Positions 1,088-52,200 of a stretch of 64,000 nt of DNA are shown here, piece by piece. Numbering within the stretch: position 1 is the stretch's first letter; every line of letters starts with the position of its first letter. A program made the position numbers and the translations under genes. The notes beneath the pieces are model-generated. The model did not search any database. It worked only from the letters and a program-made list of their open reading frames with translations, and had not been told where the DNA came from. Source of the stretch: Owenia fusiformis (taxonomy: Eukaryota > Annelida > Polychaeta > Sabellida > Oweniidae); the NCBI GenBank assembly GCA_903813345.2, contig CAIIXF020000010.1, forward strand, positions 29,692,828 through 29,756,827, written 5' to 3'.

Positions 1088-4000
1088 GACCGCCTCCCAT
1101 ATTCCATCTACGTGACGGACTATCAGACGACATACAGGGGCCACCGTAAGTTTTTCACCAACATTATCCTTGGCCCATATGGACTATTTTGATCTGCGTT
1201 ATGTACCACGAAAGGGATTTTACATATTCGGATAAATGAACACCTCTTTCTAGTCACTGTCTGCTGGCATTACTTTTTGGATTTTTTTGAAAACTATTCC
1301 CGATTTACCGCTATTTCACCTTTAATTTGTTATTTAAACGGTAACCTTAACGCATAAATAATTGGTATTGCTCGGGGAGGAAAAAACTTAATTATTTAAA
1401 AGTCTATTGGCCCAATAGGGCACGAGTTTATTTAATACCCGGGGCTTCGTATTTGTACCAAACGAAATGAAATGATGCGATATCCGGGGCTTCTCATGGT
1501 CCTTACAATACTAGGGCTAACACAACCAAATGATATAACATGCGTATTCCCATCTAAATGATTCGTCTTTCAGAGAAAACTAAGATGTGTGGTCATGTTT
1601 TGCTATCTTGCCATACCCCAGGATGTGCTCTGTCAGTCAAAAAAAGTTTGAACCAAAATTCCACACGGAAATCAAAAGATCTCACCTGTCAAATACAACA
1701 TCTATAGAAAATGTCACTCTGATTTTAACAAATGTAGACAGGTCAAAAAGGTCAAATTTCTTAAAGAAAATGCACCTCAATCACATCAAATCATGTTTTT
1801 GAGTTGGTCCCACATGTTCATACACTTTTTCATTAATGTACTTAACAAAATCCAACCACTGGTGATGCTAATATAATTACAATAATTGGACTATATTCTT
1901 GTTTTTAAAATGCCATCTTATCTGCGGAAGGATCAATAAGTTGTGTGCCCCTTAGAAGATATTTTATTGGTTGGTAGAACTGATTACGGTAAATAGTCGA
2001 GCTCCAAATACATCGAATTTGCGAGAGGCACGTTCTGGGTAAAACGTTCGCCCTTGCGTGGGGCACATCACAGAAACGAACAATGTCAGTTTATAATTAT
2101 TGATTTAGTCAACAGAACAGTATTATAATATCAAACGACTGGAGTCAGAAAATGATTAATTAATGCATGAGCCTTGGAACATGCCACAACAGTAAGTTAC
2201 ATTGAATAGTAGGTAACTGGTAACTGGTAATTTTGATTAAGAGCGCTCTATCTCAAAATTAGTATTTTTAGAGGGAGTTATATATAATTTAATAAGGGTT
2301 AGATATTGCATCAACAAATGATTTAACCGGGAAATGTCCTTCAGATATATAAAATAGGACATGTTTCAATTTTACGGTATGGCCATACTTTTATTGTCTT
2401 GGTTTTAGGGTAGGCGAGTTTAATGAGCTTTTGGAGAATCTGAAAACTGACGGAGAGGAGTCCTGCGCCACTGAGGTATCGGCTTATAATCCAAATGTGA
2501 ATAATTCTGAACAATGCACGGCGCTATACACAGTCCAACAGATCAGATGCAAGTAAGTCACGTTGTCTAAATCGTATTTCACGGCGCTGTACACAGTCCA
2601 ACAGATCAGGCTCAAGTAAGTCACGCTGTCTAAATCGTAATAAACGGCGCTGTATGCAGTCCAATAGATCAGGTTCAAGTTAGTCACGTTGTCTAAATCG
2701 TAATACACGGCGCTGTACATAGTCCAACAGTTCGGATGCAAGTAAGTCACGTTGTCTAGACCGTGATACATGGCGATGTACACAGTCAAACAGATTAGGA
2801 TCAAGTACGTCACGTTGTCTAAATCGTAATACACGGCGTTGTACACAGTCCAACAGATTGGATGCATGTAAGTCACGTTGTCTAAATCGTAATACACGAC
2901 GCTGTAATTTTTTAAAGTAAACAGTCCAACAGATCGGATGCATGTAAGTCACGTTGTCTGAATCGTAATACACGGCGCTGTACAACCAAGGACGTCTATC
3001 TCGCAAGTAATTCACAGTGTGTTTGCGATGTCATGTTCGTGTTTGAAACAGTCGATGTGTGTTTAACAGTAAACGCTGTTGCGCTATCTTTTCATGTTGA
3101 ATACACTCTGCTTGTTTGACGGGGAATCGTGGCTCCACTTCTCGTATGTTTTTCTTTTATAGTTGTGTTACTTACTACTTAGTCATGGTTTAATATTGGA
3201 GACTTTTCACAACGTAACCGCGAACGCAAAGTCCATGAATCGCTACGGTAATGTATATAGCGCGCATACAAAACAAGCGTTTATTAGTCTACTTCAAATA
3301 CCGATCAGCTTGTTTCGTGTTTAAATGGGAAATGTGCAATTTCACGTTGGTGTCAACGGGAATCTATTGAATACTATGCTGGTAATTTTGATTTCATACA
3401 CAGTAGAATTATTTCTGAAGAAGATGATGTTTGACCTACATACGTTAGCTCCTAATATCTTACGAAACGAGCTTCTTTAAAATATGTATCATAGAAAACC
3501 AGCAATATAACTTTTAATGGTATATTACACGCTGCGGTGTTGTCTAAGTAACGGACTAAGAAAACACTGTAACCGAACGATTATTTATGTAAAAAATGCA
3601 TATATTTGCATAGGGCGATTTCATACGTACAGGTTGGCGTTTTGATATTATATGCAAGCTTAATATCTCCATTCATTTGTATCTAAACATTTTGCTTACT
3701 AAGACTTTTTCAATTTATGAAGGTTGATTCTGTAAATTAACAATCGTTCATGCATCATGGTGTTATCAAAAACATTGATCAATAACACACCTTTCTGTGA
3801 CGTATTAAGTGTGTTTGTATCTATCATGGGTATGGACTTTCAGTAGGTAGAAGCGTATTGACTGTTACTTTTTTACTTCGATATGAGACTGTACTAAAAT
3901 TGTACTGATATTTCAGGGCACCGATGTTAAGGTGTAAAGGTTGCAACAAGAATAGCCATTCTTACTGTGTACAGCAATACGTTAAAAACTGGTTACCTGT

Positions 4001-4094
4001 TTTTTGCAACGGTGGAGTAAGCTGGAATTATCACGAGGTCCCATCTGGTTGCGCATGCTTTAAACTTTCCAAGAAAGCATCGAAAGGGAAGTAG
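1088..4094 (+). CDS. Spätzle-like cystine-knot ligand, 5'-partial
   Basis: Three exons are readable: 1088-1145 (putative), 2409-2552 and 3917-4094 (stop TAG at 4092). Phases agree: 1088-1145 ends in phase 2 and joins the G at 2409; 2552 ends in phase 2 and joins the G at 3917. The prodomain-like part reads through DIQGPPVGEFNELLENL. The C-terminal domain has nine cysteines: three in exon 2 (one in QQIRC) and six in exon 3, including RCKGC, SYCVQQYV and PSGCACFKL. The C-x-Q-x-Y and P-S-G-C-x-C motifs and the cysteine spacing match the Spätzle cystine knot; the W...C-x-C-x-L-S-K-K tail also recalls neurotrophins. Known Spätzle proteins are secreted, proteolytically activated Toll-receptor ligands; that role here is inferred. 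An IL-17 knot (G-C-T-C near the C-terminus) is the main alternative. The start codon and signal peptide were not found. The domain is split by an intron whose 5' end is a tandem array copied from the exon edge. Confidence 0.68.
2517..2990 (+). repeat. 63-bp minisatellite spanning exon end and splice donor
   Basis: About eight copies of a 63-bp unit begin at 2517, 2580, 2643, 2706, 2769, 2832 and 2895; the seventh carries a small insertion and the last, near 2969, is partial. The first unit is the last 36 bp of the Spätzle-like exon (to 2552) plus the first 27 bp of the intron. Most later units keep an intact or near-intact GTAAGT donor (variants gttagt and gtacgt). Because 63 is a multiple of three, the array leaves long open frames on the minus strand; these are by-products. 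Confidence 0.9.
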
Positions 4095-4341
4095 AGGATT
4101 TGCTAACAGTGATGCAACTAAAGATGTCTAACATTTATAAAACCGCATGCATTCACGGAATCGTAGCCTTAGCTGTACTGAGTTCACTTTGCTCGATTCA
4201 ATAGTTTGCTTTACAGCTAAACGTATCTCTATTGGTATTACTATTTAATCTTAAATGACGTTTCATTTCTAATTTTATTTGAAAAACAAAAAGCGGCTTT
4301 AATTTCCTTCGCAAGATTTAAAGCGGGAAATCCTATTTGCA

Positions 4342-4655
4342 AGGTATGAGACTTGGACTGCATTTTTGAACTCCCCGCGGGATAGTGCATTGCAAAATAT
4401 TCCCCCTGGGTATCACGAAAAAGAACAATGAGTCCATGCATTGGAAATTACATGCTCACACGTGTTCAACAAATTAAAGCAGTTCATCCAAGCGCACTCA
4501 AACAGCTAATTACGCTGTGGCAACCTTGTCGGCTGCTCGCGTGTGTCAACCGCGTCTGCTCGTAGCTAGTGCACCACAAGAGTTCCACTGCAATATACCG
4601 TGGTATCTTTCAAAATAATTATGTGAGTGTAGGTGCGCTTGGATAAGCTATTTTT
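4342..4655. repeat. Dispersed repeat with 159-bp inverted-ended core (copy 1)
   Basis: This block of about 310 bp matches 9422-9722. Its core, 4486-4644, is bounded by perfect 12-bp inverted repeats (ATCCAAGCGCAC and its complement) and is exactly 159 bp, as in copy 2. Homology extends about 145 bp to the left of the core. It resembles a short non-autonomous element (MITE- or SINE-like), but I see no convincing tRNA B box and no target duplication. Confidence 0.7.
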
Positions 4656-5907
4656 GTTGAAAACACACAGCAAACATAAACGATGTATGTACTGGTGCAA
4701 GTTTGAAAATGAAAGATTGTTAAATGAATTTCAAATCACACTGCCTCCACATGAAGGGAATTAACATCTAACCTTTTAGACATTTCTTCTTTTTGTGTTA
4801 TATAATTTTCTTTGTTTCAATTCCTAAGGAATATATTGAAATACATAGCTTTAAAGTTTAACAAATCATATATATTATGTATATACTTTATGTATTTCAA
4901 ACAAACCTGTCATATTATTGTATTGTCAAATATTATCAATATATCATGCAAACATGTCTGATAGTGAAAGTTGTATCGAGGTACATTTGATAATTTGATC
5001 ATTGTTAAATACGATGACGCAACTCAGGAATACGAACTATGTAAGGTCATTTTTATCATATAATATAAATATTTTCATTATCATTATAATAAATTGCAAA
5101 TTTCAGTTTGTATGATACTTTGTCTACTTCTTTATGAGTTGTTTGGTTTATAATCATGTCAATGAATGGTAAATTGATTTAACCGGAGCATCGATTCATC
5201 ATAGCAGCTTTGGTGTTAATTAAATCATCTTCGAAGTATATTTTATAGTTCCATTCACTTTGTTTCGCGTACTAAGAATTCTGAATTAACATTATATATA
5301 GTATTGCATACGGTATTTTCTGTTAGGAAGCTATTAAGATTTTGACAGCCAAACAATACCTGTCATAATAGGAGGGATTCATTTATAATACTTCTTGAAT
5401 CTTGAGTATTTTATCACTTGTGATAGGTTGGCTGTTGGCTGCAACACGATTCGCTTGCAGGTGTACATTAGTTGAAGTCACGTTGTAAGAGAACAGATGA
5501 CGATTACGTGCCATAGCTTGTCCTTTAGGATGTATCGTATTTTGTACAATAACGTACGTAACCAAGGCATGTGATAGAAATGGAATTTGATTTATTATTT
5601 TAAGTTATATTCTATATTGTGCATGTATATCAAAAATACTAAGTAGTTTTTGAGCAAAATGCGATTCGCTTATTTCCAATTTCAAGTGTATTTACGATAC
5701 CTGATATATTCAAATTCTGTTTCTAGAATTATAATTAAGCCTGCGAAATGTAATGTGTCTTCGATATCAACGACTTCTAATGTGAGCTATTTTGATGACA
5801 ACGTAGCTGGTTATCATATGAAGAATATTTCATTTTTTTCTTTAAATCAGCTCTAATGAGGATTTTGACAAAAACAGTTCTGTTTATATAGTTTATGGTT
5901 AATAGTA

Positions 5908-5991
5908 CAATAACGTCATTTCGAAGGGCAATATAGTGAAAGGCCCAAGATCCGATATTTCACTACATTGCCCGCAAAAATGACGTTATTG
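5908..5991. repeat. Palindromic hairpin
   Basis: CAATAACGTCATTT at the left is repeated inverted at the right end, and the inner GGGCAAT and TAGTGAAA blocks are also mirrored. The stem is imperfect with a short loop. It is probably a MITE remnant; no coding content. Confidence 0.7.
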
Positions 5992-6276
5992 GTATCATTA
6001 CCACCGTTAATGACTAGGACTGGAACAGCAAGAAAATCTTACGCACTCAAATTTCCGGGGAAAATTGCCGGTCATTAATTGCAATCTTGACCAGCAATAT
6101 TGACCGCCGCTATGACGTCACATATTGCTCAGGTCGATATAGTAGAACGAATGCCTTCTAAACTAGCACTAAAACCCCAAGAACTGGCCCGGCAAGGTGG
6201 TAATAATACGTATTATTCCATAATAACATGTTTTCCCTGGGAAAATAACAGGGAATAAAAGTGTTATTTGAAAAAT

Positions 6277-6370
6277 CCCGTATCAGATCCCGTATCAGCC
6301 AAAATCCCGTATCAGATCCCGTATTGGATCCCGTATCAGCAAAAATCCCGTATCAGATCCCGTATCAGAA
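6277..6370. repeat. Short tandem repeat (atcccgtatcag)
   Basis: About seven near-copies of a 12-bp unit (ATCCCGTATCAG), some separated by short A-rich spacers. Simple tandem repeat with no coding signal. Confidence 0.8.
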
Positions 6371-6697
6371 ATATTCCCGGTAATTTCTCTTGAGTTTTAC
6401 GCTTTTCGTCTAGCACATCTCTACAGGAAGTAAAAAAATCGTTTGGAAAATTGAAATTATTGAAATTATTATAATCTAGTTTACGTCTATTACTGTGACA
6501 AAGGTCATTAAGACGTTTCATGATATTGTGTTTATTTTGCCATATTATGAGCCATTTTATTGTTATAAATTATTTATATTTTTAAGTAAAACTTGATAAT
6601 AAAAGTTGAAAATGTTATATGATAAATTGTATAATTTTATGTCACAATCATTGGATGATGACATACAAAAATTGAAAAAAATATATTATGAAATAAA

Positions 6698-6884
6698 TAG
6701 GTTATTGATGGTCGTGATGGAATATGGATTTATTCCTTGAGAAAATATGATATTGGCCTCAGAAAATATCATATTGACACTCGGGCTATCGCCCTCGGTC
6801 AATATGATATTTTTCCTTGGCCAATATCATATTTTCCCTCGGAATAAAATCCATATTCCATCCCTCCCATTAAATAACCTCTAT
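6698..6884. repeat. Long palindrome, foldback MITE-like
   Basis: The two halves are complementary through nested blocks: the left arm has GGAATATGGATTTATTCC, AAAATATGATATTGGCC and AATATCATATTGAC, and the right arm has their complements in reverse order. The centre holds CTCGGGC/GCCCTCG. The right flank carries ctcccattaaataacctcta, which also follows the palindrome at 49016-49103, so the two are probably of one family. Confidence 0.8.
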
Positions 6885-7373
6885 TTATTCCACTCTTGCA
6901 TGTGTTGAAAAAAATTAGTAATAAAGACCACAAAACAAATAACTCATCATGTAACTCAAAGAAATGGAGGATGTTTTAAAGTAGTATTCGCTTATGCTAT
7001 TATTTTCCGAGAATAATGCAATATGACCTTGCTTCACTTTTTCTTTAATTAGAGGCTCTTTTGAAATAACGCTAGTTTGTATTCTCTAATTGGTCGTCCA
7101 TATCGATCAAGCTCTGCTACCACCAGGTGGTTGAAAAAGTTTGATTGATCTTCAAGTATTACAACTTATACATGTTGATATCCGGTATCCACAATGTAAA
7201 TCATCAAAGAAATGTTTTGGTTTCGGGTGAAAATATATTAATGACGTAGCCTACAAGTTTACGTAGAATTTATGATAATTTAAGTGTTTTCAAAGAAATT
7301 TTTACATCAAACGTCTGGGTGGACTATACTAAGAGTCTCCGAGTACAGCGAGGAGAGAGTCTACAGTGTCAAG

Positions 7374-9368: not shown

Positions 9369-9421
9369 GACTGCATGTCATACAGTTTTAATGTCATTGT
9401 ATTTTACAAAAGCAGTGTGCT

Positions 9422-9722
9422 AGACTGCGTTTTTGAACTGCCCATGGTGCAAGTATATTGCATAATATTTAATTAGTTTCCCCCTAGATAGCATGAAAAA
9501 GAACAATGAGCCATTGCGTTGCAAATTATATGCTCAGGCGTTTTAAACAAAAGCAGTTCATCCAAGCGCACTTTCACCGCCAATTGCGCTGTGGCAACCC
9601 TGTCGGCTGCTCGCGTGTGTCAACCACGTCTGCTCGTTGCTAGTGCACCGCAGGAGGTCCACTACAATAAACTTTGGTATCTTTCAAAAGAATTACGTGA
9701 GTGTAGGTGCGCTTGGATACAT
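9422..9722. repeat. Dispersed repeat with 159-bp inverted-ended core (copy 2)
   Basis: Second copy of the repeat at 4342-4655. The core at 9560-9718 is again 159 bp between perfect 12-bp inverted repeats. It begins about 50 bp after the ankyrin gene stop, so the 3' UTR of that gene may run into it. An open frame through it (9519-9962) is not supported as a gene. Confidence 0.7.
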
Positions 9723-9884
9723 TTTTTTATTTCGAAAACACATGAGCATGTAAGTTGCACTGCTTTGCTTATTGTTCTTTTTGTGATACTTAAAAATATT
9801 ACGCATTTCACTAGCACCAGGGGCATGATAAATACAGTCCTAAACTATACTATATTGTGTGTGAGTGATTTTCGTTTCATGAAT

Positions 9885-13541: not shown

Positions 13542-15832
13542 TTATTCAAATGTATCAGCACGATACAAAACGTTGTAACCTTTAGCAATATAATCAAAAT
13601 ATATTTGATCGGCCTCTAATCGTTTCTGAATCTTTGGAGGGAAAATACTTCTATCGGTTATGGTTCTTTTTCGTTTGTATGCACCTTCAGCATTTTGAAC
13701 TACACAGTCGAGTGTCTTTTCAGAAACTGGATGACCAAGGAAAATACAAATCTTTCTCAACTCATCCTGAAATGTCGTAACATATAGATTCATCAATTGA
13801 CCTAAACGTGTTTCAATTTTCAATTAGTTGATAATTACACAATCGTTAATTGTCACATGGAACTAATAATGCATTAATATCCTTATATATGTATATGAAT
13901 AAGTACTCATGAATCTAAATCTATACTTTGATATATAAACTGTACTAATTGACCTTTTGTGATCAGAATTTAAGTATTGGTCCTCTAGGAAGACCAGGTT
14001 TGTATTGATAGAGCTACCCAGAATAAGTAGCTTTCAAATCGAATCAAATATATAATATCATCCTTACCTTAAGATTTACTTTCAGCTCTTCATATCTGAC
14101 AATGTGTATGGGGCCAAAAGGAAATGCTAACCAAGTGACACCATGGTATAACCAATACGAGCTCCGTAAACTCACAAATCTCTCCCAGTCTATAAATAAA
14201 AAGCGCAATTGTCATTTGGGGGGGACAACAGAGAAAATTCTAAAAAACGTAATAGTGTACGAATCATGCAGGAATATAACAAATATACACATTAATATCA
14301 ATATAACATGGTATGAAATTAAGTGTTAGTTTATTTATATTTCAAGGCTCTTGGAAATTGGAAATTAAAGTAATTCATGCTACAATATTTTTTCATGGAA
14401 CTGCAACATTTGGCATATTATACTCCATCGGACATATGTAGAAGGGCTTTAGGTAAGAATGAAGTCAACAATTTGTTTGACTCTGACCTTTTACCAAACT
14501 TGTACTGGTTGATTTAAAAAGGATAACCACCAACCTTTGGACAAATGTCACGTGTTTGTTATAATATCACAATATATGCCATATAATAAAATCACGAACT
14601 TTTGGACATATGTCACTTGCTTGTTATATTGTCACAATATATGTCATATAAAATCACGAACCTTTGGACAGAAATCGTTTTTTGGGCGCTGTCTCAGTTT
14701 TGTTCTTTGTATCAATCCTGTTAAAAGCTGCAACAATCGCATCAAATGGAGTACGAACCAATAGAATGGCCTTTGTAATGCCATTCTTTTCAGACCATCT
14801 TGTGTGTCGTTTCGTCACAATGACTGAATTATTTTTAGGATCATTTGGAAATATCTCTTGATCGAGTTTTGTCTCATTGTATATAGAGCCAGTGTATATG
14901 CCTGCAATAGATTGATAGTTAGGAAAAACGCTAGGTAGTATAGTTAACTAGCTAGCTAGGTGGGTAGCTAACGTATATTTATATATCTTAAAACAAATAC
15001 TCCGTAATCAAAACTTATGAAAATGTTCAAAAGAATAAGTTTATATATGAGTTCAAGTATTTCTAGATTGTTGTTAAAGTAAAATTAAAAATTGAGATTG
15101 TATACCAAATTATATACTTGTATCTAAGTTAAGATATACATAGAACAGGTACATTGAAGTTTGCTTCAGTTCGAGTTAAATCTTACCCGTTGCTTGTTGA
15201 ATGAGGTGTCTGACCCATGTGTTTCCACTCCCTGGTACACTCACAAGAGCAATGTGTGGTAAAGCCACCGGAGAGAAGTGCAGCGGGGTGCAATCCTTGG
15301 GTCTTCCAGATTTGATCAGTATTTCACCTTTGTCAATGTCCTCTTTACCTCCAATTAATTGTGGCTCTGTGTTTTGTGCACTTTTGGTAATGAGGATAGA
15401 ACCTTTCGAAAGTTCTGTAAAGGCTTGAAATATGAAGGTATGTAATCAATACTGATTTTTAAGCATGTATAGTGCAATGCAGAGAGTGTATCCGGAGTGA
15501 CTAGTATAGGAGAATAATGCTATTCAATTTACTACCATATCTCCCCTATTGCAACGATGACCATTGAATAGCCAATTAGACCATGCTTATGTTCGACATT
15601 TTATTTTTCTCAGAGAAGGTTGGGAAATGACAAAAAGGCTTTGGGATGTACAGTTGAATAGGTCTATATAAGTGGTCTTACCTGTTATCGAAGCCGCTAA
15701 TAACGCCAGTGCCATAATGGTTATGACAATCTTAAAAGCTGTCATATCATGAGCAAGCACAAACTGTGCAATTTTCCAAATAGTATTTGACCTCTCCTTA
15801 AGACTGACTTTCATATGTTTTTGCTTGTCCAT
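13542..15832 (-). CDS. WSCD-family sulfotransferase-like protein B
   Basis: Five exons: 15832-15682, 15414-15187, 14901-14662, 14189-14068 and 13766-13542. Phases are 1,1,1,0 as in A and C. The total is 966 nt, 321 aa. The ATG at 15832 is the first in the open frame; the frame extends upstream only to a TTG. Exon 2 could also begin at 15423, an in-frame AAG acceptor 9 bp upstream that would add three residues. Exon 1 encodes an N-terminal basic region and a membrane segment (IVITIMALALLAASI). Exon 2 carries LVSVPGSGNTWVRHLIQQ, the PAPS loop. Exon 3 carries LLVRTPFDAIVAAFNR, where the usual Asn of RNP is Thr. Exon 4 carries FPFGPIHIVRYEEL and exon 5 DELRKICIFLGHPVS. The donor after exon 3 (AAAG|GTTCGT) is weak. 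The gene is probably functional; its acceptor substrate is unknown. Confidence 0.86.
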
Positions 15833-17380: not shown

Positions 17381-17990
17381 TGTTACTGTGAAATAATAAA
17401 ATAAAATAAATAGATAGTTCGTTGTAGTTGACAGTCAATGTTCTCATCTTTATTGCACTTCAATATTCACATCTCATCTCATCTTAAAAGTCTAAAACTC
17501 AATTGGTAAAATGTTCTCTAAAATACAACACTCTGCTCTACTATATGCATACATGTCTTTCACTCCACTAATACTTTCATACTAAACTCAACTCAGTCAA
17601 CCCATTCATGCACTACTGAATAATCCATTCACTCACTCAGTCTAAAAACAATCTAATTATGAAAGTAAGTCCTCCCATGTCATCCCACCGCTGCCACCAT
17701 GTGAAACAATAAAATAAAATAAATAGATAGTTCGTTGTAGTTGACAGTCAATGTTCTCATCTTTATTGCACTTCAATATTCACATCTCATCTCATCTTAA
17801 AAGTCTAAAACTCAATTGGTAAAATGTTCTCTAAAATACAACACTCTGCTCTACTATATGCATACATGTCTTTCACTCCACTAATACTTTCATACTAAAC
17901 TCAACTCAGTCAACCCATTCATGCACTACTGAATAATCCATTCACTCACTCAGTCTAAAAACAATCTAATTATGAAAGTAAGTCCTAACA
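17381..17990. repeat. Directly duplicated 286-bp block with TGTTA/TAACA ends
   Basis: The block 17388-17673 is repeated almost exactly at 17701-17986 (offset 313 bp), with a 27-bp GC-richer spacer. The whole unit starts TGTTAC and ends CCTAACA, short inverted ends like those of long terminal repeats. Two LTRs with nearly all the interior lost, or a tandem duplication of one solo LTR, would both look like this. I see no flanking target duplication, no primer-binding site and no coding region. Confidence 0.7.
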
Positions 17991-20137: not shown

Positions 20138-20249
20138 TATGTACTCTTGATATAAAATAAATACGGTGTGTTAAAACAGTACCCACACAGGATTTACTGT
20201 CAACCCGGAGATGATGAACAAATTAAATAGCTATAAAACTCAACGGCAG

Positions 20250-22470: not shown

Positions 22471-25400
22471 TTATCTATATTCTTCTAAGAAGCGATCAAA
22501 TAGTAGCATATCTGACTCTAGCTTCTGTCGTATTCGCAAAGGGAATAGCGTTCTATCTGTTTCCGTTCTGTTTCTTCTATATGCACCTTCAGAATTCCGT
22601 ACGACACAATCCAGTGTCTCCTCCGAAGCCGGGTGACCAAGAAAAATACAAATCTTTCTCATTTCATCCTAAAATTGACAAATAAATCCTTACAAAATAA
22701 AAGGCCAATCCGGTAAATCAGTTTAACTGCAGTTTAATGGCAGAAATAAAATTAAATGATTTTCAAAAACTAGAAATGCTCCCTTGCGGCACAATAGCCT
22801 TCTAACTATAGCCCACATAATGTGACAGATCACAAGCGCCGACGGGACTATTTTTAATAAATATCAAAATCTATTTCAAACGGTTCACTTAATGGAACAT
22901 AAATATTCTGTCCGTTTAGAATTATTGTTAACTAGCAACGTTATGTTCAAATCTAAATTTAAATCATCCGCATCTAGTACATTGACGTCGATTGTGAGAC
23001 TGCAAATGATAACGTACCTTCAAATTACTTTTTAAGTCTTCATACCTAACTACATGCACAGGTCCAAATGGGTACACTAGCCAAACCATTACATTATATA
23101 ACCATTTTGAACCACTGTATTCTACAATCTTGGTCCATTCTACAAAGGAAGAGAATATAATATTATATAACCATGTTTAGCAACACTATTCTACAATCTT
23201 GGTCCATTCTACAAAGGAAGAGAATATAACACTATATAGCCATTTTGAGCCACTGTATTCTACATTAATCTTGGTCCAATCTACGAAAGAAAAGATTACA
23301 GCATTATATAACCATTTGAGCCAATGATTGTATTCTACAATCCATCCTACAAAGGAAGAAAGTATAACATTGTATAACAATTTTGAGCCACTGTATTCTA
23401 AAATCTCGGTCCATTCTACAAAGGAAGACGGTAAAACATTAAATACCGATTTTGAACCATTGTATTCTACTGTCTTGGTCCATTCTACATAGGAAGGGAG
23501 TTTAACAGTATGTTACCATTTCGAGTCACTGTATTCTACATTTTTGGTCATTACAAAGGAAATTGAATAACATAAATAACTATTTTGAGCCACGGTATTC
23601 TACACGAAGAGTAAAATAGTATATAACATATTTTATATTATATAACAAATTTTGGCAACTGTATTCTACAAACTTGGTCCATTCTACAAGGAAAAGAGAA
23701 TGGCATTATACACATATAACAATTTTGAGCCACTGTATTATGTACTGTATTCAATCTAGATCCATTATACAAAACAAGAGAGTTAAACATTATATAACCA
23801 TTTTCAGCCATCCACTGTTTTCTACAATCTTGGTACATTATTCGAGGGAAATTGCATCACATTAAAAAAACTATTTTGAGCCACTGCATTCTAAAATCTT
23901 GGTCCTTTCTACAAAGGGAGAGAGTAAAATATTAAATAACAATTTTAAGCCATTGTATTTTACAATTTCTGTCCATTCTACAAGGAAAAGAGTACAACAT
24001 TATGTAACTATTTTGAGCCACTGCATTCTAAAATCTTGGTCCTTTCTACAAAGGGAGAGAGTAAAATATTAAATAACAATTTTAAGCCATTGTATTTTAC
24101 AATTTTTGTCCATTCTACAAGGAAAAGAGTACAACATTATGTAACTATTTTGAGCCACTGCATTCTAAAATCTTGGTCCATTCTAAGGAAAAGATTTAGA
24201 GTATAGCATCATATAAACAAATATATAAACTATTTTGACCCGGTGTATTCTATGAGCCTATAAATAATTCTCCTCCTGAAGATGCTGAGAAGCAAAATTA
24301 GTTATATCTTTGAAGATTTTTTGAACGGCATTAATACATACCATTGTATAATGAAACATAGGGCATTTACCTTTGGTTTGAAAATGATCTTTAGAGGCAG
24401 TCATAGTCTTATCCTTAGTAACCTCTCTGTTAAACTCTGCTAGTATTGCATCAAATGGGTTACGAACTAGTAATATAGCTTTAACAATCTTCGGACTTGA
24501 TTCAGACCATTTGTTGTGTCTCTTTGTGACAATGACCGAATTGTTCCTGGGGTCGTTAGGAAAAATCAAAGGGTCCATCTTTTGATCTCTATACATGCTA
24601 CCCGAATATAAACCTGTCAAAAGATGAACACATAGTTCATTAGTTTGAATGGTTTGTCACGTCTTGTATTCGAAATATCATTTTGGAAGCATTGACCTTG
24701 TGCGTTGTAAATAAGTGAATAATTAGGTCATGTACCACCCTGTAGGTAAAGCAATGCTTGTCAAATTTTAAAAAAATTAAAAATTCCAAAACACAACATA
24801 TTGATGCAACAAAAATTTAAAAAGCTGGAGTGGAAGGGGTTGAAAATCAGGACATTTCAGAAAAAACATGTGGGTGGGTTGTTTGCACCTTCCCTGTCTC
24901 AAAGTCGAAATTATTTTTTCATCTTTATGAGTGCTTTTCGTGTAATTAATGCATTGGCTTAACATATGCACCTGATTAAATCCTCAGAAAGTAGCCAAAA
25001 TTCAACATATGACTATCCGGCGTCTTTGTTGCGATACTTTCCCTCCTCCTTTGTGTCACACATCGCAAATATATCGCAACATCTTAGAAAGAATGAAGCT
25101 CAACGCGAAAGCATTTTGTAATTTCTTTTGATTTGACAAGCATTAAGTACATGTTGGTAATTTTAAGCACTCGTTTTCTGTGAACGTTTACCCTCGTTTT
25201 TAGCCTAAAAGAACACTGTGCTTAAAACCATACACAAATCATTGAACCCCGGACTTCCAGTTTTTAATTATACATATTCCAACGCAAATTCCCTATAAGA
25301 TGATTTTCGAGTAATGCCATTTACCCGTTGCTTGTTGAATGAGATGTCTGACCCATGTGTTTCCACTCCCTGGTACACTCACAAGGGCAATGTGTGGTAA

Positions 25401-30100: not shown

Positions 30101-32794
30101 TTTCTTAAAACATTCAAAATGGCTGACATGACTGAGCTAACAGTTCCAAAACCTAATCAGATCTAGAATGAAGTGAGCTGAACAAGATGTTAACGTTTTA
30201 AAAGCAACTGTGAAGCCGTTTGCAGACAAGGATTTTAGCATTTGACTTCAAAATGGCCGACAGGAAGTAGGTATCGAGTTAATTTTTTTCATCCACATCT
30301 AGATGCACTCATAAGTTATCCCTGAAAATTTGAAGGTGATATCTGTAGCGGTTTTTGAGAAAACTGCCAGACGTATGGACGGACAGACGGACAGACAGAC
30401 GGACGGACGCGCCTAGGCCGACAATATGGCCCCACACTATGTGGTGGGGACATAAAAAGAGGCGACGTCTATTCAATTCATCTGATGTCGGTCGTCATTA
30501 ACAGAAACTTGTTCTATTGCCGTGCCGTCATAATTTCCATGGTTACGCCAATTGGTTTTTGAAATTAGCAATTCTTAACTTTTTCATTAATAAAACGGAT
30601 ATATTTACAAGAGCAGCTGATCCGGAACTGGAACCCCCTGTGGTCCTTGATGTATCCACTGGATTAGTTACTGGGCCACTGTTCGCCGTGAAACTGTTTC
30701 CCGAAAAACACAGGTCCTCACAAACTGCTTTTCCGGTTATTCGTCCTCCTGTTAGCAAAACCTCGAATATACTAAGACAGTTTAAAGTTGACTATTTTGA
30801 ATGATTCTAAGAGATAACGATCGATTACAGTTGTATCACAGTGATTTACTTACTTGCCTGAAATGTCATAAAATTGTTACTAGTGTGTTTACACTAATTT
30901 ACACACTTGCGTTGCCTGGTATACTATTAATCGTGACTACAGTGTTATCACACTCATTTACATACTTGCCTGTCACACTGTTAATTGTGACTACTGTTGT
31001 ATCACACTCATTTACATACTTGCCTGTCACACTGTTAATTGTGACTACTGTTGTATCACACTCATTTACATACTTGCCTGTCACACTGTTAATTGTGACT
31101 ACAGTGTTATCACACTCATTTACATACTTGCCTGTCACATTGTTAATTGTGACTACTATTGTATCACACTCATTTACATACGTGCCCGTCACACTGTTAA
31201 TTGTGACTACTATTGTATCACACTCATTTACATACGTGCCCGTCACACTGTTTATTGTGACTACTGTTGCATCATACTCATTTACACACTTACCTGTCAC
31301 ATTGTTTATTGTGACTACTGTTGGATGACATTCATTTCAAAATTTTACTATTAACTGTTGAGACAGTTGAATTCGCATTAAGCTTCTATGATCCTCCAAA
31401 AGACGGTTGCAGTACGTCGTGTCGATGGTTAATTCAACTAATTGACATACCTGCCTCTAAGACCCTGGTGACTACGGTTGCATCGAACTCAGGCACATAT
31501 CCCTCCATTGTTTTACTACCATTGCTCAGTGGAACGCCTGCAACGGCAATGTTGTCTTTCACAGCTATAGTTTTACCCGTTAGCTTGCCTTCTGCAGCGC
31601 CTTTGATGTCCGTACACCAGGCCCTGAAAAGTATGGTTTAATGTTTGACAGATTTGTGATAATGTTTAATATTTGAACTGTGAAAATACATGCATGGCTA
31701 CTTTTAATTTGGTGAAAAATATTTCTGTGATATTTATTGAACATTTGCACCTTGTTCAAAGCGTTTGAGGCGAAATTTAAGTGTTGTTTTTATGCCAGCA
31801 TTATGGTCAGAAGTAGAGACTATTGTTTTATATAAAGTCTCTCATTTTCTTGTGGACTTTGTTCGGCGGTCAACGTTGGGCGGTCGGCGTTTGGTGTCTG
31901 TAACAAATTCTTACAATTTCCAATATTACCAGCTGGCGACATTTTATCATGGTATCGCCTTGTTTTGTTTAAAATGTGTTAGGGTAGACTTATTAAATAA
32001 ATGAACAGTTCTCAACTCTGTGTTTCTGTTACACTGAACCTAACAGACTGTTAAACACAAGATTTATATCAGTTAATAATATTTACAATATTTACCAGGC
32101 ATTGTAGGGGTTTTCTTCCTTTGTTGGTTTGTGTCCCGATGTGCGAGGAAATTTAACTTCAAGTGTTGGCTCAACCAGTTCTTCCAACTTTTGATAAGCC
32201 TCGCAAAACCCCTTCAAGTAATCTTCGAAATAGTATTAATAAAAACGAATTATTAATTGATCTGACAATATGATCTTGTATTTTGAACAATGCACATAGA
32301 TATATACATATTAAAGAGCAAAAAGGCCGCAATTTGAGTTTTCGCACTATTTTGCTATTACTTTTGTATTGGAGTATAAAGATTTCTTGGGAATTTTGAT
32401 TACAAAAATTAAATACAACGTTGAAATTTCTCATGTGTTTAATCAAGGGATCTTTCATCTTGAAAGTCCCCTGTTCGAGAAGTTCACTCTTTATTTGCTT
32501 TAAAAATGTATTTTATTTTCAGAAATTCATGTTGATACCAAAGCCTATGGATGTTGCAAGTTACAGAATAGTTGTTTGCATTTAGGTCAGGGGTGATTGG
32601 GATCAATTGCCTTTGTTTGATAGCATATTCCCTTGAGCATGTTTTACAATACCTCGATGTTGTTCAAGTTGATCCTCGGTTAGGTTGAAGCCAAGCTCTT
32701 CTGATATCTCCCTAAGTTGCCGAACTGTCGGTAGCTCCACCACGGGCGTTGTATAGTTAGCAACGGGCTCATCTGAGCTGGTGTTCGAAGACAT
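27124..32794 (-). CDS. Amidase-signature family hydrolase
   Basis: Nine exons: 32794-32653, 32222-32096, 31623-31451, 30748-30609, 29420-29151, 28945-28789, 28652-28596, 27946-27659 and 27314-27124. The total is 1545 nt, 514 aa, and the frame is kept at every junction. The ATG at 32794 starts [10 protein letters not shown]; the frame upstream has no better start. The catalytic triad is visible: Lys112 (AVKDN), cis-Ser187 (GGSSSGSAA) and nucleophile Ser211 ([11 protein letters not shown]). [20 protein letters not shown] follows, and [10 protein letters not shown] sits near the end. Family members hydrolyse amide bonds to acid and ammonia or amine; the substrate cannot be read from sequence. 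The N-terminal domain and the NPYNAW segment resemble bacterial enantioselective amidases more than FAAH, and there is no membrane anchor, so it is probably cytosolic. The intron after exon 6 uses a GC donor. Two introns hold expanded repeats. Confidence 0.92.
28787..28788 (-). promoter_or_regulatory. GC splice donor of amidase intron 6
   Basis: Exon 6 ends AAATATG and the intron begins GCAAGT. Using GC keeps phase 1 and gives [11 protein letters not shown]. The only nearby GT (four bases downstream) would shift the frame and stop within exon 7. GC-AG introns are a known minor class. Confidence 0.8.
29481..30453. mobile_element. Non-autonomous repeat element in amidase intron 4
   Basis: Bounded by short inverted ends (ATGTCCCCACC at 29481 and GGTGGGGACAT ending at 30453). 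The inside holds about three diverged tandem blocks around the phrase gacaagactttacagacaag, with ccaaaatggc motifs, and a (ggac/ggac-agac)n stretch at about 30373-30405 before the right end. It has no coding frame. The aaaatggc blocks are reminiscent of the 145-bp repeat family of this window. Confidence 0.6.
30822..31335 (-). repeat. 54-bp minisatellite derived from an exon end and donor
   Basis: About eight 54-bp units plus one or two degenerate ones lie in amidase intron 3. The GTGACTAC landmark recurs at 30933 and 30987 and then every 54 bp to about 31311. On the minus strand the unit encodes [18 protein letters not shown], resembling the end of exon 3 ([18 protein letters not shown]). 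The position matching the real donor (GGCAG|GTATGT) reads GGCAAGTATGT in the units, so GT is retained. The unit length keeps open frames on both strands; these are not genes. Confidence 0.85.
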
Positions 32795-35700: not shown

Positions 35701-35809
35701 GTTAAAGGTATAGTGCAATATCGGTATATCTGCTTCTTGGCAATCGCAAGTACACGTACATTACATGAAGGGAAATTCAAACATTGACAACTGACACAAG
35801 CTCGCTTAT
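32795..35809. other. Intergenic between amidase and glycosyltransferase
   Basis: These two genes are divergent, so both promoters should lie here. No supported exon. An inverted repeat occurs at 34289-34350 (TGCGTATTTG with its complement, and TCACGC/GCGTGA inside). The frame at 34185-34532 runs through this palindrome and is not supported. GC-richer bits near 33660-33720 contain cgcatgcg, which could be promoter-proximal, but this is not established. Confidence 0.5.
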
Positions 35810-38800
35810 ATGTTTTGCAAAATGGTTAAATTAAAGAGGTACTTAAAATATATCGTCCTCACTGGATTACTAATAGCTATTGTGAAAATATTCTTAATAC
35901 AAAGTTCAGTTAAAATCAGGTGGAAACATCAAAGGATAACGAATACACATGGGAAAAGTCTTGAAAGCTCAAGTTTCAGCGCATCACCAAATCAAGCAGA
36001 TGGAGAATTATCAAGACACAAAATTTGGGATTCCTTACAGTGCGCCACTATTGACAAAACCCAAATGAAACCAAAGTTAAAACCGCGGACTGCACAGTCG
36101 AAGGTTCCACTTGAGCTTTATCATATGAATTGGACGAATAGTTTTCTTGACGCTCACAAAGTTATAAAATGGCCAAAATGGGATATTTGCAACGTTGGAG
36201 AAGAGGAGAATCTTCTTTTGCTGTTTGTCATAAGTCACAAAGCTGGTATGTATAATCAAACGTGCATAAAAGAGAGAAAAATGTAGAGGATCAAACAGCA
36301 ACGTAAAAAGTGGTCAAATAATGGGTTTTAAAATATGGGAAGAGTAGAGGGAGAGAGGTTAAACTCTAAAACATGAGGTAATAGTCATGTTTTACATTCC
36401 AAAATGGACCATAGATAATGAAAAGTCGGTTTTCCATCACTATTTTCACATATCACATAGTCACATACACTACTAGTATGTGAATAATGTGAGCATTGAA
36501 CATTCTCTTATTTCTAACATGGGAAACCCTCACTTCAGTTAATCCATGACTCATTTATTAATTGTCCAAACTGTATATCTCAGCCGATGTCTCAGTCATT
36601 GGACCCAGCTGTTTTCAGAGCTATAAGGTGGTTCCGCATCAGAAATTTATTACCTATCGAGACCCACGTTATTTTCAAAATGCTAAGTGTATTATAGATT
36701 GCATACAGGTGGTTCCTTTTTTCACAATGTGAGATTTTACACAATCAAGTTAACATTCGATATTCTCATATATTCTCATATTTGAATGGCTGTTTGAACG
36801 TTTAAACATATTTGATTGATAAAAGCTCACCTCATTGTAGTTTCTAGCTTCTTGTGGTCAAACATTGAGTAGGAAAACATAATTGACATTGATGTGCGTT
36901 TAAAGGGTGACGCATATCGTTTAGCAAATCGAACGCTCGTTTCTGGTGTTGCTCACCGTTTAGTATAAAAGGCCCGATCCCGGAATAATACTCAAGGGTT
37001 TACAGGTTCTAGGTCGTTGTGTCAACACCTCTAACTGTTATATAGTATAAGTATATTATAGATCGTCACACATTTATAAAAGGGTGATTTTTATTTTGAC
37101 AAATCAATTCCACATTTATGGGTGAAATTTCAGGATCTTTTATTTGTGTACAATAAGGAAAAATTGGCATCTAAATTTCCCCATAACGTAATAGCACACA
37201 GCTTGGCATATGAAATATCCTACAAATGAAACAAGGCAAGACAAACCGGTTTCTAATACAAGGATTTATATTGGCTGTTGTACATGTATTCTTTGAACGC
37301 AATCACTCTTTGGATAACGTTTTCAAAATCATTATAAACGGATTACTTTATCTCAAAGACAATTTCAATAAACTGGATTTTACAGAACTCCCCTTATTTC
37401 TTAAAAATGGACTGATCCAGTTGATTCGCCTGGAGCCGCCATATTGTTTTTATACGGGATGCTAATCGTCACCCTTTAAGCGCAGCAAGTCTCAACCAGT
37501 AGAAAATTATGAATTGTAAAAATACGAGATACAGACTGAATCGAAACTACAAATTGATATTTTAGCTACCTTCTTAGCTACTCACACTCAGCTACTTACC
37601 CAGCTACCCACTCAGCTACTTGATCTTAAATTGAACTCTGTAAAAGCAATCTTGTTATTTTTCTAGCGCTAATTGAGAAATACAACCAGAACAACGGCAA
37701 CGCCAAAGCGTGGCGAATCCCATCGAACAGAAATGGCTGGCATTTTTACAAACAAAATATATAGCAAATATCGTAAAATAACACCCATAAGGAAGGCCAC
37801 CATTTTCAAAATGATTGCTCACTAGCCAAGTTGTCATCAGAAGAAGTAATATGCTTTTGAGTAGCCACATATAAAAAAATTTAAAAATCGAACACACATA
37901 CATGCAAAATCCTGTAAATTTTTTTAAATGGCCGCCTTCTACCCAAAATGTCATAAGACAGTATGCAATCCTTACGAGTATTCACATATCAAATATGAAA
38001 AAAAATCGCTCTATTACTTTTGAAGTATAATAAAAAAAATGTAAAATAACACACATACAAATGGTGGCCATTTTTTAAAATGGCCGACTGCTCCCCAAAG
38101 TTTTATTAGACAATGTGCCATGCTTAAAGTATTCACATATCAAATATGAACAAAATCGCAACAAAATACTTTTCGAGTTATAGTAAAAAATGTAAAAATG
38201 ACAGCCATTTTTAAAATGGCAACCTACTACGCGAAGTGTCATGAGACAGTGTGCAAGGTTCATAAGTGTTCACATATCAAATATGAACAAAATCGCTCTA
38301 CTACTTTTCAAGTTATAGTAAATAAAAAACGTAAAAAATGGTGGCCATTTTTCAAAATTGCCGCCTACTACCCATAATGTCATTAGACAGTGTGCCATGC
38401 TTATAGTATTCACATATAAAATATGAACAAAATCGCGCTACTACTTTTTGAGTTATAGTAAAAAATGTAAAATAACACACATAAAAATGGCGGCCATTTT
38501 TCAAAATGGCCGCCTACTACCCAAAATGTCATTAGACATTGGGCCATGCTTAAAGTATTCACATACCAAATATGAACAAAATCGCTCTACTACTTTTTGA
38601 CTTACAGTTAAAAATGTTAAATAACACACGTAAAAATGGCGGCCACTTTTCAAAACCTACTACCGAAAATGTCATAAGACATTGTGCCATGCTTAAAGTA
38701 TTCACATACCAAATATGAACAAAATCGCTCCACTACTTTTCAAGTTACAGCAAAAATCGTAAAATGATGTGCAAAGGCAGTCATTTTTCAAGATGGCTGC

Positions 38801-44181: not shown

Positions 44182-44211
44182 ACATACGTATATCAATGTA
44201 TTATATATTAT

Positions 44212-44362
44212 GAGGTTATATAATGGTTCTTTCTGTATATCGTGTTTATACTCGAGTGAGTATATGATATATTCACAAGTGAGCGTAGCGAACGAGTGAA
44301 TATATTATATTCTCACGAGAGTATAAAATACACGATATACAGAATGAACCATTATATAATCT
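44212..44362. repeat. Palindromic foldback repeat
   Basis: tataatggttctttctgtat and the following tatcgtgtttatactc are mirrored by gagtataaaatacacgata and tacagaatgaaccattata. The centre is gagcgtagcgaacgagtg flanked by atatattcac/gtgaatatatt. It is a hairpin-forming MITE-like sequence directly beside the long-armed element. Confidence 0.8.
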
Positions 44363-46262: not shown

Positions 46263-49200
46263 TCAAAGTTCTGTAAGTAAATTTCTAACTGGCCTGGCTT
46301 GATACATATTGACACCATAGTCTGTTTTACTCTTGGCATCAAAATCCTCATTTCTCGGTGCGATATCTCGCCTAGAGGGAGAACTAGCATATGTATCTCC
46401 CATGTTATTGCGGTTATTACGCCTTCTTGCACCTGGACTCTGATCATATGTGTTAAAATTTCCAACAAGTCCATTTGCTTGTTTATTTGGTGAAACTGAA
46501 GTGTTGTTATTGCTCTGTTGTGGGCTACCTTGTTTATAAGGACTGTTGCCATAGTTACTGTAATTTTTGCCATCATTATTATTGCTATTTACAACACTTC
46601 CATTCATACTTGTGTCCTTATTTGGAGAAATTAACCGAGAGTTCTCCGTCATGGTATAGCTTGTATATTGCTTGCTAGTACTGTTGTTATAGTTACCACC
46701 TTGGTTGCTATGTTGACTGAACTGGTTGCCATGGTGACCAGAGTTATTGCTACGGTGGCCAGGTTGGTTTCTATAGTGATTCGGTACATTCTGGTAAGGT
46801 GTTCCTTCAGACGTAGACTGGAGCATGTGCGAGGGGCTTGATTGGTCGATAGGTTGAAACAATTTTGGTGCTGGGGATTGCTGTTGGTGGCTCTGGTTGT
46901 GCACCTAGAATATAAACCCCACTATCAGTATTCATAACTTGAAGGTTTATTCACTATATCAAAACAATGATAGATTTGGGTATTAAATTTGGCCATTTAT
47001 AAGCACCTTAAAATTGTAAATAAATGTCTCTCACTTCAAAAGCTTTTACCGAATAAAAGTATACAATTCTCCTTTTGTATTCCATCTTCCCATTTGAGTA
47101 AATTTTTATATTGTTCCAATTATATGATGAAATTGTGCGGTAACAGGCAAAAGCCCTTGAAATGAGTACCATCTATTGGCAATGCAGAAGTAAAATGAGC
47201 CAAAAAGCATGAAGACAATGACCAAATTAAACAAATAATAAATATTCCACTGTTCAACATGAACCATAAATAAACACATTAATATTCCACTGTTCAACAT
47301 CAAATATTGTTGTTACTATGTTGTTATTCAAACTATCAGAACTTTGTTCGATTGGATAATTATCAAGGATTTTAGAAGTTTAAGAATATCTTTTATATGG
47401 CATCAAAATAGTTACATGCAAAAAACAAAAGCTTTATAGAAAACAAATAAATGGGACAAGCGGTGACTTTAAGCACAAAACTTCAATATCAAATGTGACA
47501 AACTATTCTAATTAAGAAATGCTTAAAAAACAAACACTAAAATTTGGATGGGGCGAAACCCAAAAATATACATATACGTTGGAGGGCCCTGATTTAAAGC
47601 AGGCTGACTTATAGTATGACACTTACCACATTTCCACTAGTGATTTTAAAGAAAAATTATCATATTTAATTTGTAATACATGATGGCATTTAAATTAATC
47701 AGAAAAATTGTCTGAAGATAACGTTTACTCTGTTTCATTACTCAATATCTCTCAAAAGTTGAATTTCCTCCTTCACTTGTGGCATTACTAAGTAAATTAT
47801 AGTGATGACTACATGTCTGTTCCCCTATTTGCTTCTCTATTTCGTATATTAAAACATAAATGCCTTGACATAATATACAATAATACACACAAATAAAATC
47901 ATAAAAAAAACATGCATCTATGTTATGAATTTGAGGAAACCCATTCTTAAAAACCGTTCTGTTACTTAGATAAATAAATCATAAAATGTTCATATATTTG
48001 ATCATATAAATATTAATTGAAAAACTAATTCTAACCTCTTTGGATGCATTATTTTGCCTATTTGTCCCATTAAACTGCATGTAACTATTGCTTCCTGGCC
48101 CGACAACAGTCTCTTCCTGGTTCTCACGAGGTAAATTTCCAGCAACAGTGCCATCCTGTCTGGATGAGTATTTGTTCTGGTAACTTTGGTAACCATTTGG
48201 GGTGCCATTTTGAGATGGTACACTGCAAAATATGAATTCAGAGATTAGACCTCATTCACCTTTAGTTAACAGCATTGAGTTATGAAAGGAGCTAATTTAT
48301 GTAGAATCATGAACAGAGAGCTTTCCAGTTTCTTTCCAAGTCGTCCCCATTTTTTCAAAACACTAACACTGTTACCACAACAATAAAGATGTTAAGCAGA
48401 TGTATAATTTATCCCATACTTAGTAGTGTTACAGGTAAATAACATGTGGGTATCTCGTATAATTGATATCTGAGGTGAGCGGGTGATATATATTTCGTTT
48501 TAAACCTGCACATCGCTCCAAAACGCAATATGTTGACATATATTGTTTTTTCTGCGTAATATCAAAGAACAATCATTTAGTTAAAAAAATAAAAAGTGAG
48601 TATGGGATTCAAACCCGGCCCTCCTGCGTGCTGAGCGAGCATTCTACCGCAAGGCCAACGAGTTGTTATCAATGATGGGAGTAATTAAACGCTACTAATG
48701 TTGAATGCTATAATTCGGAAGTGACGTCACATTCTTAATTAGAAACCTTTCCGAAATCATATCGTCGTCACCAATCGAAGCAATTCAATGGCCAATCTTT
48801 GAAATGACACATTTATCGTAAGTATTTATACACAAGATTTGCCCCATTTGTTCATCATTCTATAATCTTTCATTAAGCTCAAAATGATAAAGTTCACCCC
48901 CGAAACAACCCAAGATTGCGTTTTGGAGCGATGTGCAGATTAAATAAAAGCTTTACATTGAGATAAAATCATCATAATCTACCAAGTATAGGATAAATCA
49001 GTTATCAAATGCTCAATTTTTGATACATGGTATATCCCTCGGCAAATACAATATTTCAATATATTGTATTTCCCTCAGATATACCCTCTATCAAAAACCT
49101 CCCATTAAATAACCTCTATATATCAAACACTGAAGACAAGAATGATTTTGATCAGAACTGGTTTTAAATATTAGTTCATTCTGTTTTGCATTTACTCTTT

Positions 49201-52200
49201 ACAGAATCTCAAAAATTAATTAGAATCTGAACTATTTCTGTGAGAAAATATTATAACTCCAATGTAAACAGCAAGCACTTGTGTAAGCAGCATGAACTTG
49301 TGTAAACAGCATGTACTTGTGTAAACAGCACGCACTTACAGCATGAACTTGTGTAATTAGCATTTACTTGTGTAAACAGCATGCACTTGTGTAAACAGCA
49401 TGAACTTGTGTAAACAGCATGAACTTGTGTAACAGCATGCACTTGTGTAAACAACATGCACTTGTGTAAACAACATGCACCTGTGTTAACAGCATGCACT
49501 TGTGTAAATAACATTCATCTTGTGTAAACAGTATGCACTTATGTAAACAGCATGCACTTGTGTAAACAGCATGCACTTGTGTAAGCAACATGCTCTTGTG
49601 TAACCAGCTTGCACTTGTGTTTACAGCATGCACTTGTGTTAACAGTATGCACTTTTGTAAACAGTGTGCACTTGTGTAAACAGCATGAACTTATCTAAAC
49701 AGCATGCACTTCTATAACCAGCATGCACTTACTAGCTGGGTGTGTGGTTTGAACTGGAGTCCTTTCCATATGGGCTCTTTCCATCAGCATTATGAAGACT
49801 GCGAAAACCATGCTGAAACAAATATATAAATAGTAATAAATACATATGAAACATAATGAGTTTTGTTTGTTATTAAGTAGATATATACTGGTCAGAATAA
49901 ATACATATGTGTCTGTTAATTCACTTCATTGGTTACATGGAAAAAATAATCAGTTTTTTGTATCCTGTTAAGTATGAAATAAGATCAAATACATTATATG
50001 TCCCATGATTAAATCAACGTATTGGTTCAATTGAGAGAATGTAACTGAGATCATTGTCATTTTCAAATAGAAGTTTACCCTTTGCATTCATTCGACTTTG
50101 CTTCTTAAAAGAGAGCTTGGTAGATTATAACTAGCCTCTGTGTGCAGCTTTATTGGCACGCATGTCTGTATAAACTTCTCCAAGGAACACCTTTCAATGA
50201 GGAACAATTTCAAAAAAACTGAGAGTTTCGTATAAACTTCTCCAAGGAACACCTTACAATTTCAAACAAAACTGAGAGTTTCGTATAAACTTCTCCAAGG
50301 AACACCTTTCAATGAGGAACAATTTCAAACAAAACTGAGAGTTTCGTATAAACTTCTCCAAGGAACACCTTACAATTTCAAACAAAACTGAGAGTTTCGT
50401 ATAAACTTCTCCAAGGAACACCTTTCAATGAGGAACAATTTCAAACAAAACTGAGAGTTTCGTATAAACTTCTCCAAGGAACACCTTACAATTTCAAACA
50501 AAACTGAGAGTTTCGTATAAACTTCTTTAAGGAACACCTTTCAATGAGGAACAATTTCAAACAAAACTGAGAGTTTCATATAAACATCTCCAAGGAACAC
50601 CTTTCAATGAGGGACCATTTCAAACAAAACTGAGTTTCGTATAAACTTCTCCAAGGAACACCTTTCAATGAGGAACAATTTCAAACAAAACTGAGAGTTT
50701 CGTATAAACTTCTCCAAGGAACACCTTTCAATGAGAAACAATTTCAAATAAAACTAAGAGTTTTGTATTTACTTCCACAGTACATACAAACGCAATTTAG
50801 TGGTTAATATTATGAATGATGTTAGTCTGATCATGCTCTTAACATTTAAGTATAGAGAAAAATAGAATCTAATGATGGCATTCTTCTGAATCTCAATAGC
50901 ATGCAAAAGGTTAATATTAAAACACTGGTTCCTAGTATTATCTGTTAGTCATTGGCAATAACGCAAATGCGAGTAGGTAGTTACCAGTTCCACCACCAGG
51001 TGGCTCGTTCGAGTATAGTAGAAAGTTCCCTTTAACTTAAATTACATCTGCTTTAGTGGTTCAATTTTCATATAGCCCTTATGTATCAAAGAGTTATGCA
51101 AATTAAAGTATGTCCAGTAAAAGAAAATGTTATATGCCCAATACAAGAAAAGATATTTTTCACTTTTTGTGATTTTGTAGTATGGGGTCTCTGGGGAATC
51201 AACCCGAATTAGAAGTCACATTTTCAAAAAAGATTAAATTTTCAAAGTTGATAAACAATTTTCGAAACCATATTTTTAGATGTATTTTACATGCAGATTT
51301 CAAATATGACATCACTTTGACTGAATTTTGAATATTTAATGACGTAAATCAAGATCATTTCTACTCGCATCTAGTCTATTGTTTGGGATAATTCAATTTA
51401 TTTCTTCATGACTGTATTACTCTTGGGGATTTTTCTTTCTCATGTATACTTATACTTTCTGGGCCCTTTCTATGTTATAGATGCCAAATGCGGAACTCGT
51501 AGTGGTGACAAAAAATGAGAGAATATTTTTGCATGAATTCAAGTTTCGTCTTCCAATGGACAAATACCATATGGTATGTGAAAGGTTATTTTTAAATTCA
51601 AACTTAAGTGGCTCATTTTTATGAGTTGTCCATTAATTACCTGAGCAGTAATATGTTCTGGAGTTTCTCTAATCGGTCCAGCAGAGAGGGTCTGTCTATC
51701 AGATATAGATGGAGCTTGAGTATTATGGGGCTCACGCTAAAGGGAATGAAATTCTAAGATTAGGATCTACTGTACAAACTAAAGACCTTAGTTAAAACAT
51801 CACTTTGGTTTGGCTATTATTTGCCTCACAATTTTAAATCGAGTATGTAATTCCTTGCATTTGTATACAATTTGGAGTGTTTGCTACATGCTAATGTAGT
51901 TTTTCTCGCTATTTTCACTATTTTTTGCTCTGTTTTTTAACGCATAACCAATGTGATGTCTTACAGAATAAACGCTATGTTTAAAACAATTTTAGTTTTC
52001 TAGGGTCATTAACAGAAATTTGTAGTCAAGAATTCCTTAATCAATTGTAAACTAGGAAACAATGAGGTCCTATGGCAAAGGAATAATGGACTCGCAGATT
52101 CTTAACTTATATAGTCTCTGTTCATGAACCCCAAAAGTGTTATGTTAATTTAAACAACATGCATCAAGACGAAACAGAAAGACAATTTATCACTAGAAAC

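Follow-up and report, generated by a model that had tools for sequence, protein, structure and literature searches.

Why do minisatellites in neighbouring but different genes repeat the exon–intron borders of the genes that hold them? The original prediction for this locus held that four unrelated genes within 64 kb (the window, meaning the whole stretch of DNA analysed) carry intronic arrays built on their own splice junctions, that selection or a junction-seeding mechanism might be responsible, and that no named system does this. On the last point there is a named precedent, because two papers (PMC3087553, PMC3902484) describe tandem repeats spanning exon–intron borders in lancelet genes as 'mirages'. 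The arrays described here belong to this known kind, and we use the name for any array whose unit contains sequence from both sides of a junction.

TRF returned 37 rows for the window, and merging overlapping rows (score at least 100, period at least 15) left 15 arrays by hand count. We aligned the 70 bases around each candidate junction to its array and compared the score with those of 500 dinucleotide-shuffled versions of the array and of 33 to 39 neighbouring segments (33, 33, 36 and 39 for the four junctions named next). The Spätzle-like, sulfotransferase C, amidase and sulfotransferase B junctions scored 90, 104, 34 and 41 against best shuffles of 25, 33, 26 and 24, and in each case 0 of 500 shuffles and none of the control segments reached the score. 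The junction of a disordered-protein gene scored 27, a value that one of the 500 shuffles and one of the 37 control segments also reached; the array beside it (49263–49730, minus strand, 19-bp unit; TRF) starts at the third intron base and holds no exon sequence, so we do not count it as a mirage, and the adjoining exon has no homology support. Three of the four predicted cases thus stood (Spätzle-like, sulfotransferase C and amidase), the disordered-protein case did not, and the array of sulfotransferase B (14528–14670) joined them. Altogether, of the five window arrays beside a junction, four contain exon sequence; they belong to four genes, two of them paralogs of each other. Elsewhere in the window, TRF found further tandem arrays at 17387–17986, 37920–38765, 50168–50775, 57747–58059 and 61094–61366, and an 18-bp repeat at 53138–53217 in the disordered-protein gene falls in an open frame and encodes a Gln-Gly-His-Pro rich repeat.

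The four mirages differ in which side of the intron they occupy and in how much exon they repeat. In the cysteine-rich Spätzle-like gene (plus strand), an exon with an open frame (2409–2552, its start placed by eye) ends in the first copy of the array, and its donor GT begins at 2553 in the junction alignment. The donor mirage (2513–2982; TRF and junction alignment) contains 7 junction copies of a 63-bp unit composed of ~40 bp of exon end, the donor and ~22 bp of intron. The name of this gene is a weak label that we could not confirm: no Pfam or NCBIfam family matched the protein, and the best PDB matches were marginal (RNF38, E = 0.049; ovulation-inducing factor, E = 0.087). The sulfotransferase B donor mirage (14528–14670, minus strand; TRF and junction alignment) has 3 junction copies at 62–65 bp spacing, with a unit that holds 9 bp of exon end and the donor, which lies at 14661. 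The acceptor mirage of sulfotransferase C (23091–24185, minus strand) comprises 15.8 copies of a ~69-bp unit (TRF) made of a pyrimidine tract, AG and ~50 bp of exon start, and tblastn also matched the exon-start copies; the real exon (23018–23139, minus strand) stands behind the last copy and starts as in the paralogs at 14190–14068 and 10699–10577. The amidase donor mirage (30912–31337, minus strand; TRF and junction alignment) has 7.9 copies of a 54-bp unit that match the end of the exon at 31451–31625 (minus strand, start approximate; donor beginning at 31450), from which the array has diverged and is separated by ~113 bp.

These units occur at a single locus each. In a whole-genome DNA search (498,259,871 bases in 525 contigs; very common words may be skipped and only the best candidates are scored), the Spätzle-like unit gave 7 matches, all at its own window locus, and the other four units of the window, joined into one query, gave 19, again all at their own window loci. 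Dispersed satellite insertion predicts units at other loci, and none were found genome-wide by this search, which may skip very common words. Since the units matched only where they stand, the arrays look born in place.

For sulfotransferases B and C and the amidase, the introns that house the arrays are older. Three sulfotransferase paralogs, A, B and C, lie side by side in the window with exons common to all three, and the intron separating the third matched exon from the fourth measures, by eye, ~217 bp in A, 472 bp in B and 1231 bp in C. TRF found no array in this intron in A, an array at the donor end in B and an array at the acceptor end in C, indicating that B and C acquired their arrays independently, in an intron already present before the genes duplicated. 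For the amidase, 18 of 20 sampled paralog stretches contain a match in which this exon ends near the same point of the profile (91–95), and none of the 18 has a TRF array scoring at least 100 at that junction; two stretches (L002 and L003) have arrays deeper within the same intron, and another (L019) carries a donor mirage elsewhere in the profile, at ~108. Amidase paralogs form two clusters, at C4:11.11–11.23 Mb and C12:10.48–10.63 Mb, with ~15 genes in the stretches taken. Because these introns are common to array-free paralogs, the arrays of sulfotransferases B and C and of the amidase entered old introns. This observation bears on whether the arrays are relics of intron birth, in which an intron is created when a segment with AG and GT is duplicated in tandem (the Rogers model) and the array is the remnant. 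Such a route has been published, and fission yeast genes are reported to have introns lying across copies of a 24-bp segment, but a new intron made of the duplicate is not what we found for the sulfotransferase and amidase introns, and the four window arrays stop short of the other intron end. We therefore regard an origin as intron-birth relics as highly improbable.

To place the window in context, we measured how often arrays straddle junctions in 296,876 bases beyond it, chosen by protein family (kinesin, myosin, amidase and chaperonin); the sulfotransferase and P450 families were left out. The primary set was built from Pfam exon positions (92 matches for the myosin head, 76 for amidase and 144 for kinesin), with 220 listed matches used in 67 stretches totalling 243,617 bases (35 per cent G+C, compared to ~41 per cent in lancelets) and matches outside the stretches left out. 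Tandem copies in one kinesin stretch, L035, were left out by hand except for two, although tblastn among family members restores tandem copies; after tblastn the set held 323 exon matches and 488 splice junctions, computed by a caller with hand-set weights that misses weak exons. An array was scored as straddling when it extended 4 bp or more to each side of a junction, and the expectation was obtained by placing a founder of the array's period uniformly. The replication set, for which this rule was fixed beforehand, was the Cpn60_TCP1 family (60 matches, 49 used; 9 stretches, 53,259 bases, 90 junctions). Among the sampled myosins, one muscle myosin gene at C9:37986009–37994334 (low end in L021) has ~11 unevenly spaced copies of a myosin-head exon (profile ~27–81), perhaps a large alternative-exon cluster; the best PDB matches of the L021 protein were chains of 1dfk and 1b7t (509.7 bits), which we take to be bay scallop myosin, followed by myosin-6 and -7 entries (493 bits and less).

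In the primary set, 13 of 37 arrays straddled a junction compared to 4.95 expected (P = 2.3e-4), and in the replication set 6 of 13 did so compared to 1.18 expected (P = 3.3e-4). Pooling gave 19 of 50 compared to 6.13 expected (P = 4.9e-7), a frequency of junction placement about three times that predicted by uniform placement, with straddling arrays in all four sampled families (kinesin 9, chaperonin 6, myosin 3, amidase 1). The enrichment at splice sites that the original prediction proposed as a check was therefore present in a separate sample of the genome. The primary result was similar at TRF score cut-offs of 80 (13/49, P = 6.6e-4), 100 (13/37, P = 2.3e-4) and 150 (12/29, P = 5.8e-4). 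The L035 array was known before sampling, as kinesin matches had shown ~19 copies at 159-bp spacing; excluding it left 12/36 in the primary set (P = 5.6e-4) and 18/49 pooled (P = 1.3e-6). Arrays within one gene are not independent, and the 19 include three in L046 and two in L074. A subjective count by eye gave more junction arrays (18/37 primary, 8/13 replication, 26/50 pooled), because the caller misses weakly conserved exons.

Could density alone produce this overlap? With many tandem arrays and many exons, random founders would often include a junction even with no preference for one, and 6.1 of the 19 overlaps, about a third, are expected on this basis, a share that would grow if the caller missed many junctions. 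Doubling the junction density raised P to 0.12 in the primary set, 0.013 in the replication set and 0.010 in the pooled set. A per-point test likewise favours coincidence: local copies were present at 13 of the 305 points on junctions, compared to 81 of 1599 in introns and 26 of 902 in exons, with no junction excess. We hold that this test works at the wrong level, because an intronic array counts with every copy and a junction array only with its one real junction; it nonetheless counts as a result against a junction excess, and readers may weigh it differently. Against coincidence stand the pooled excess, which persists at doubled density, the separately drawn replication set, and the ratio in the primary set of 13 straddling arrays to 5 near misses within one unit. 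Of these near misses, the one in L036 (2434) is by eye a mirage of a junction that the caller missed, and the one in L046 (6344) begins exactly at a donor misplaced by the caller. We consider density coincidence unlikely as a full account. A dedicated mechanism that seeds duplications at junctions is possible; part of the overlap is attributable to density, and the per-point result goes the other way.

Several sampled loci illustrate the range of structures. The kinesin gene in L035 (C2:23266345–23269188) holds an array of 159-bp units (17.9 copies, 97 per cent), each made up of an acceptor and ~130 bp of exon. L074 (C11:134700–142700) holds one CCT chaperonin gene with several junction arrays, including ~20 copies of a 53-bp unit of exon end plus donor. 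At L047 901–3219 and L076 5589–6735 (C1 and C7), a common repeat motif recognized by eye constitutes a dispersed minisatellite, unlike the mirages.

High identity raises the question of whether such arrays are assembly artefacts or clusters of alternative exons. Some are 97 to 100 per cent identical, and one published lancelet mirage was reportedly mis-assembled in a draft; the four window arrays, however, are diverged, with ~69 to 93 per cent matches in TRF. Units such as those of L035 have an acceptor and, by eye, lack a donor, which would not suit cassette exons. An explanation by artefact or alternative exons is scarcely credible to us.

If the extra copies were retained for a role in tuning splicing by competition for splicing factors, as selection for serial decoy splice sites would have it, their splice dinucleotides should bear on the matter. 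We analysed 22 junction arrays picked by eye (4 from the window and 18 from the primary sample), and both donors and acceptors are affected in the window and in the sample. The anchored junction was the exon-side end copy in 20 of the 22; in L030b and L030c the anchor string fell on an inner copy, and the last copy leads, by eye, into the exon. GT or AG was kept in 107 of 111 decoy copies over the 22 arrays, a count that omits copies too diverged for the cut-off, which is the retention expected of selected decoys, but GT was kept in 0 of 2 decoys of L040. Over 11 arrays, most of them little diverged, decoy dinucleotides carried 3 substitutions compared to 9.0 expected (P = 0.056), a deficit that shows neither selection for the decoy GT and AG nor their purging. 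An ungapped version of this count (3 compared to 15.7 expected) was dropped because it counted misregistered columns.

Predicted consequences of decoy use also speak against selected decoys. Read-through of 23 arrays gave a reading frame for 22 (L075 gave none), and use of a decoy is predicted to lead to an in-frame stop in 14 of these 22: 10 of 12 donor arrays and 4 of 10 acceptor arrays, the latter scored as a stop in frame within one unit. The ten donor arrays are nine computed as truncating before the next copy and the amidase, whose stop lies 14 bp on and which the program labels differently; donor arrays L044 and L046c stay open. There was no preference for unit lengths that are multiples of three (8 of 22 arrays by hand count). 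Arrays also differ among paralogs. Selection for decoys, the other cause suggested in the original prediction, thus found little backing here, and we judge it very unlikely.

What is left is, in our view, the likely explanation: the arrays are mirages, products of local tandem duplication that is widespread and falls on junctions in excess, and they are tolerated. The structures are real, common in the sample and found on junctions more often than uniformly placed founders would be. The founder would be a local tandem duplication of roughly 30–260 bp that spans an exon–intron border by chance or by direction, with the duplicate landing within the intron, where slippage or unequal exchange could multiply it. 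The copy adjoining the exon would remain used and coding, and the other copies would be carried neutrally as intron with splice dinucleotides mostly intact. The array would be tolerated because the gene can still rely on the exon-side copy. Such duplication is widespread in this genome, hits donors and acceptors alike and adds to existing introns; its reach beyond the sampled families we infer from the sample.

The lancelet mirages offer the closest comparison. They have been described in Adh3, the globins BflGb6 and BflGb9, and, from PMC3902484, PGBD5 and troponin C; they are minisatellite-like, sit at donors or acceptors with AG or GT kept in many copies, show traits that include length instability between haplotypes or in soma, and are suggested by RT-PCR to be spliced regularly. 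The arrays here resemble them in having units that span the exon–intron border, in affecting donors and acceptors, and in keeping AG or GT in many but not all copies. Lancelets, however, are chordates, whereas the present genome looks lophotrochozoan (a COX1 search for a mitochondrial contig matched nothing); splicing was examined there by RT-PCR and is here deduced from DNA; and here genes chosen by family were counted and tested against random placement. Our searches of the open-licence literature showed no report of mirages outside lancelets. Three other studies describe related phenomena. Intron gain by tandem duplication, including the potato RdRp gene (PMC4974935), also involves tandem duplication across an intron–exon border, but there the duplicate becomes a new intron, whereas here it enlarges an existing one in 2 to ~20 copies. 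Internal tandem repeats that alter human genes in segmental duplications (PMC2812944) likewise include minisatellites at exon–intron borders that change intron structure, but they concern recent paralogs found through variable repeats, and the sections seen contain no test for a junction excess. Earthworm metallothionein has intronic minisatellites and silent exon-4 duplications, with no border-spanning repeats in the passages seen.

In the reports consulted, mirages amount to a handful of cases in lancelet genes, and here they occur in all four sampled families. With this many cases, one can ask whether tandem duplication favours splice junctions and whether arrays of this kind contribute to the lengthening and the gain of introns. 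The arrays also offer numerous natural experiments on spliceosomal choice between nearly identical sites, and gene prediction in such genomes should be expected to yield false exons at them. More tentatively, and with somewhat less than even confidence, we suggest that a non-chordate animal, probably an annelid, has an active process that preferentially duplicates DNA in tandem across splice junctions, which would load a noticeable share of them with spare splice sites, lengthen introns and supply raw material for new ones, and which it may have in common with lancelets by descent or by convergence.
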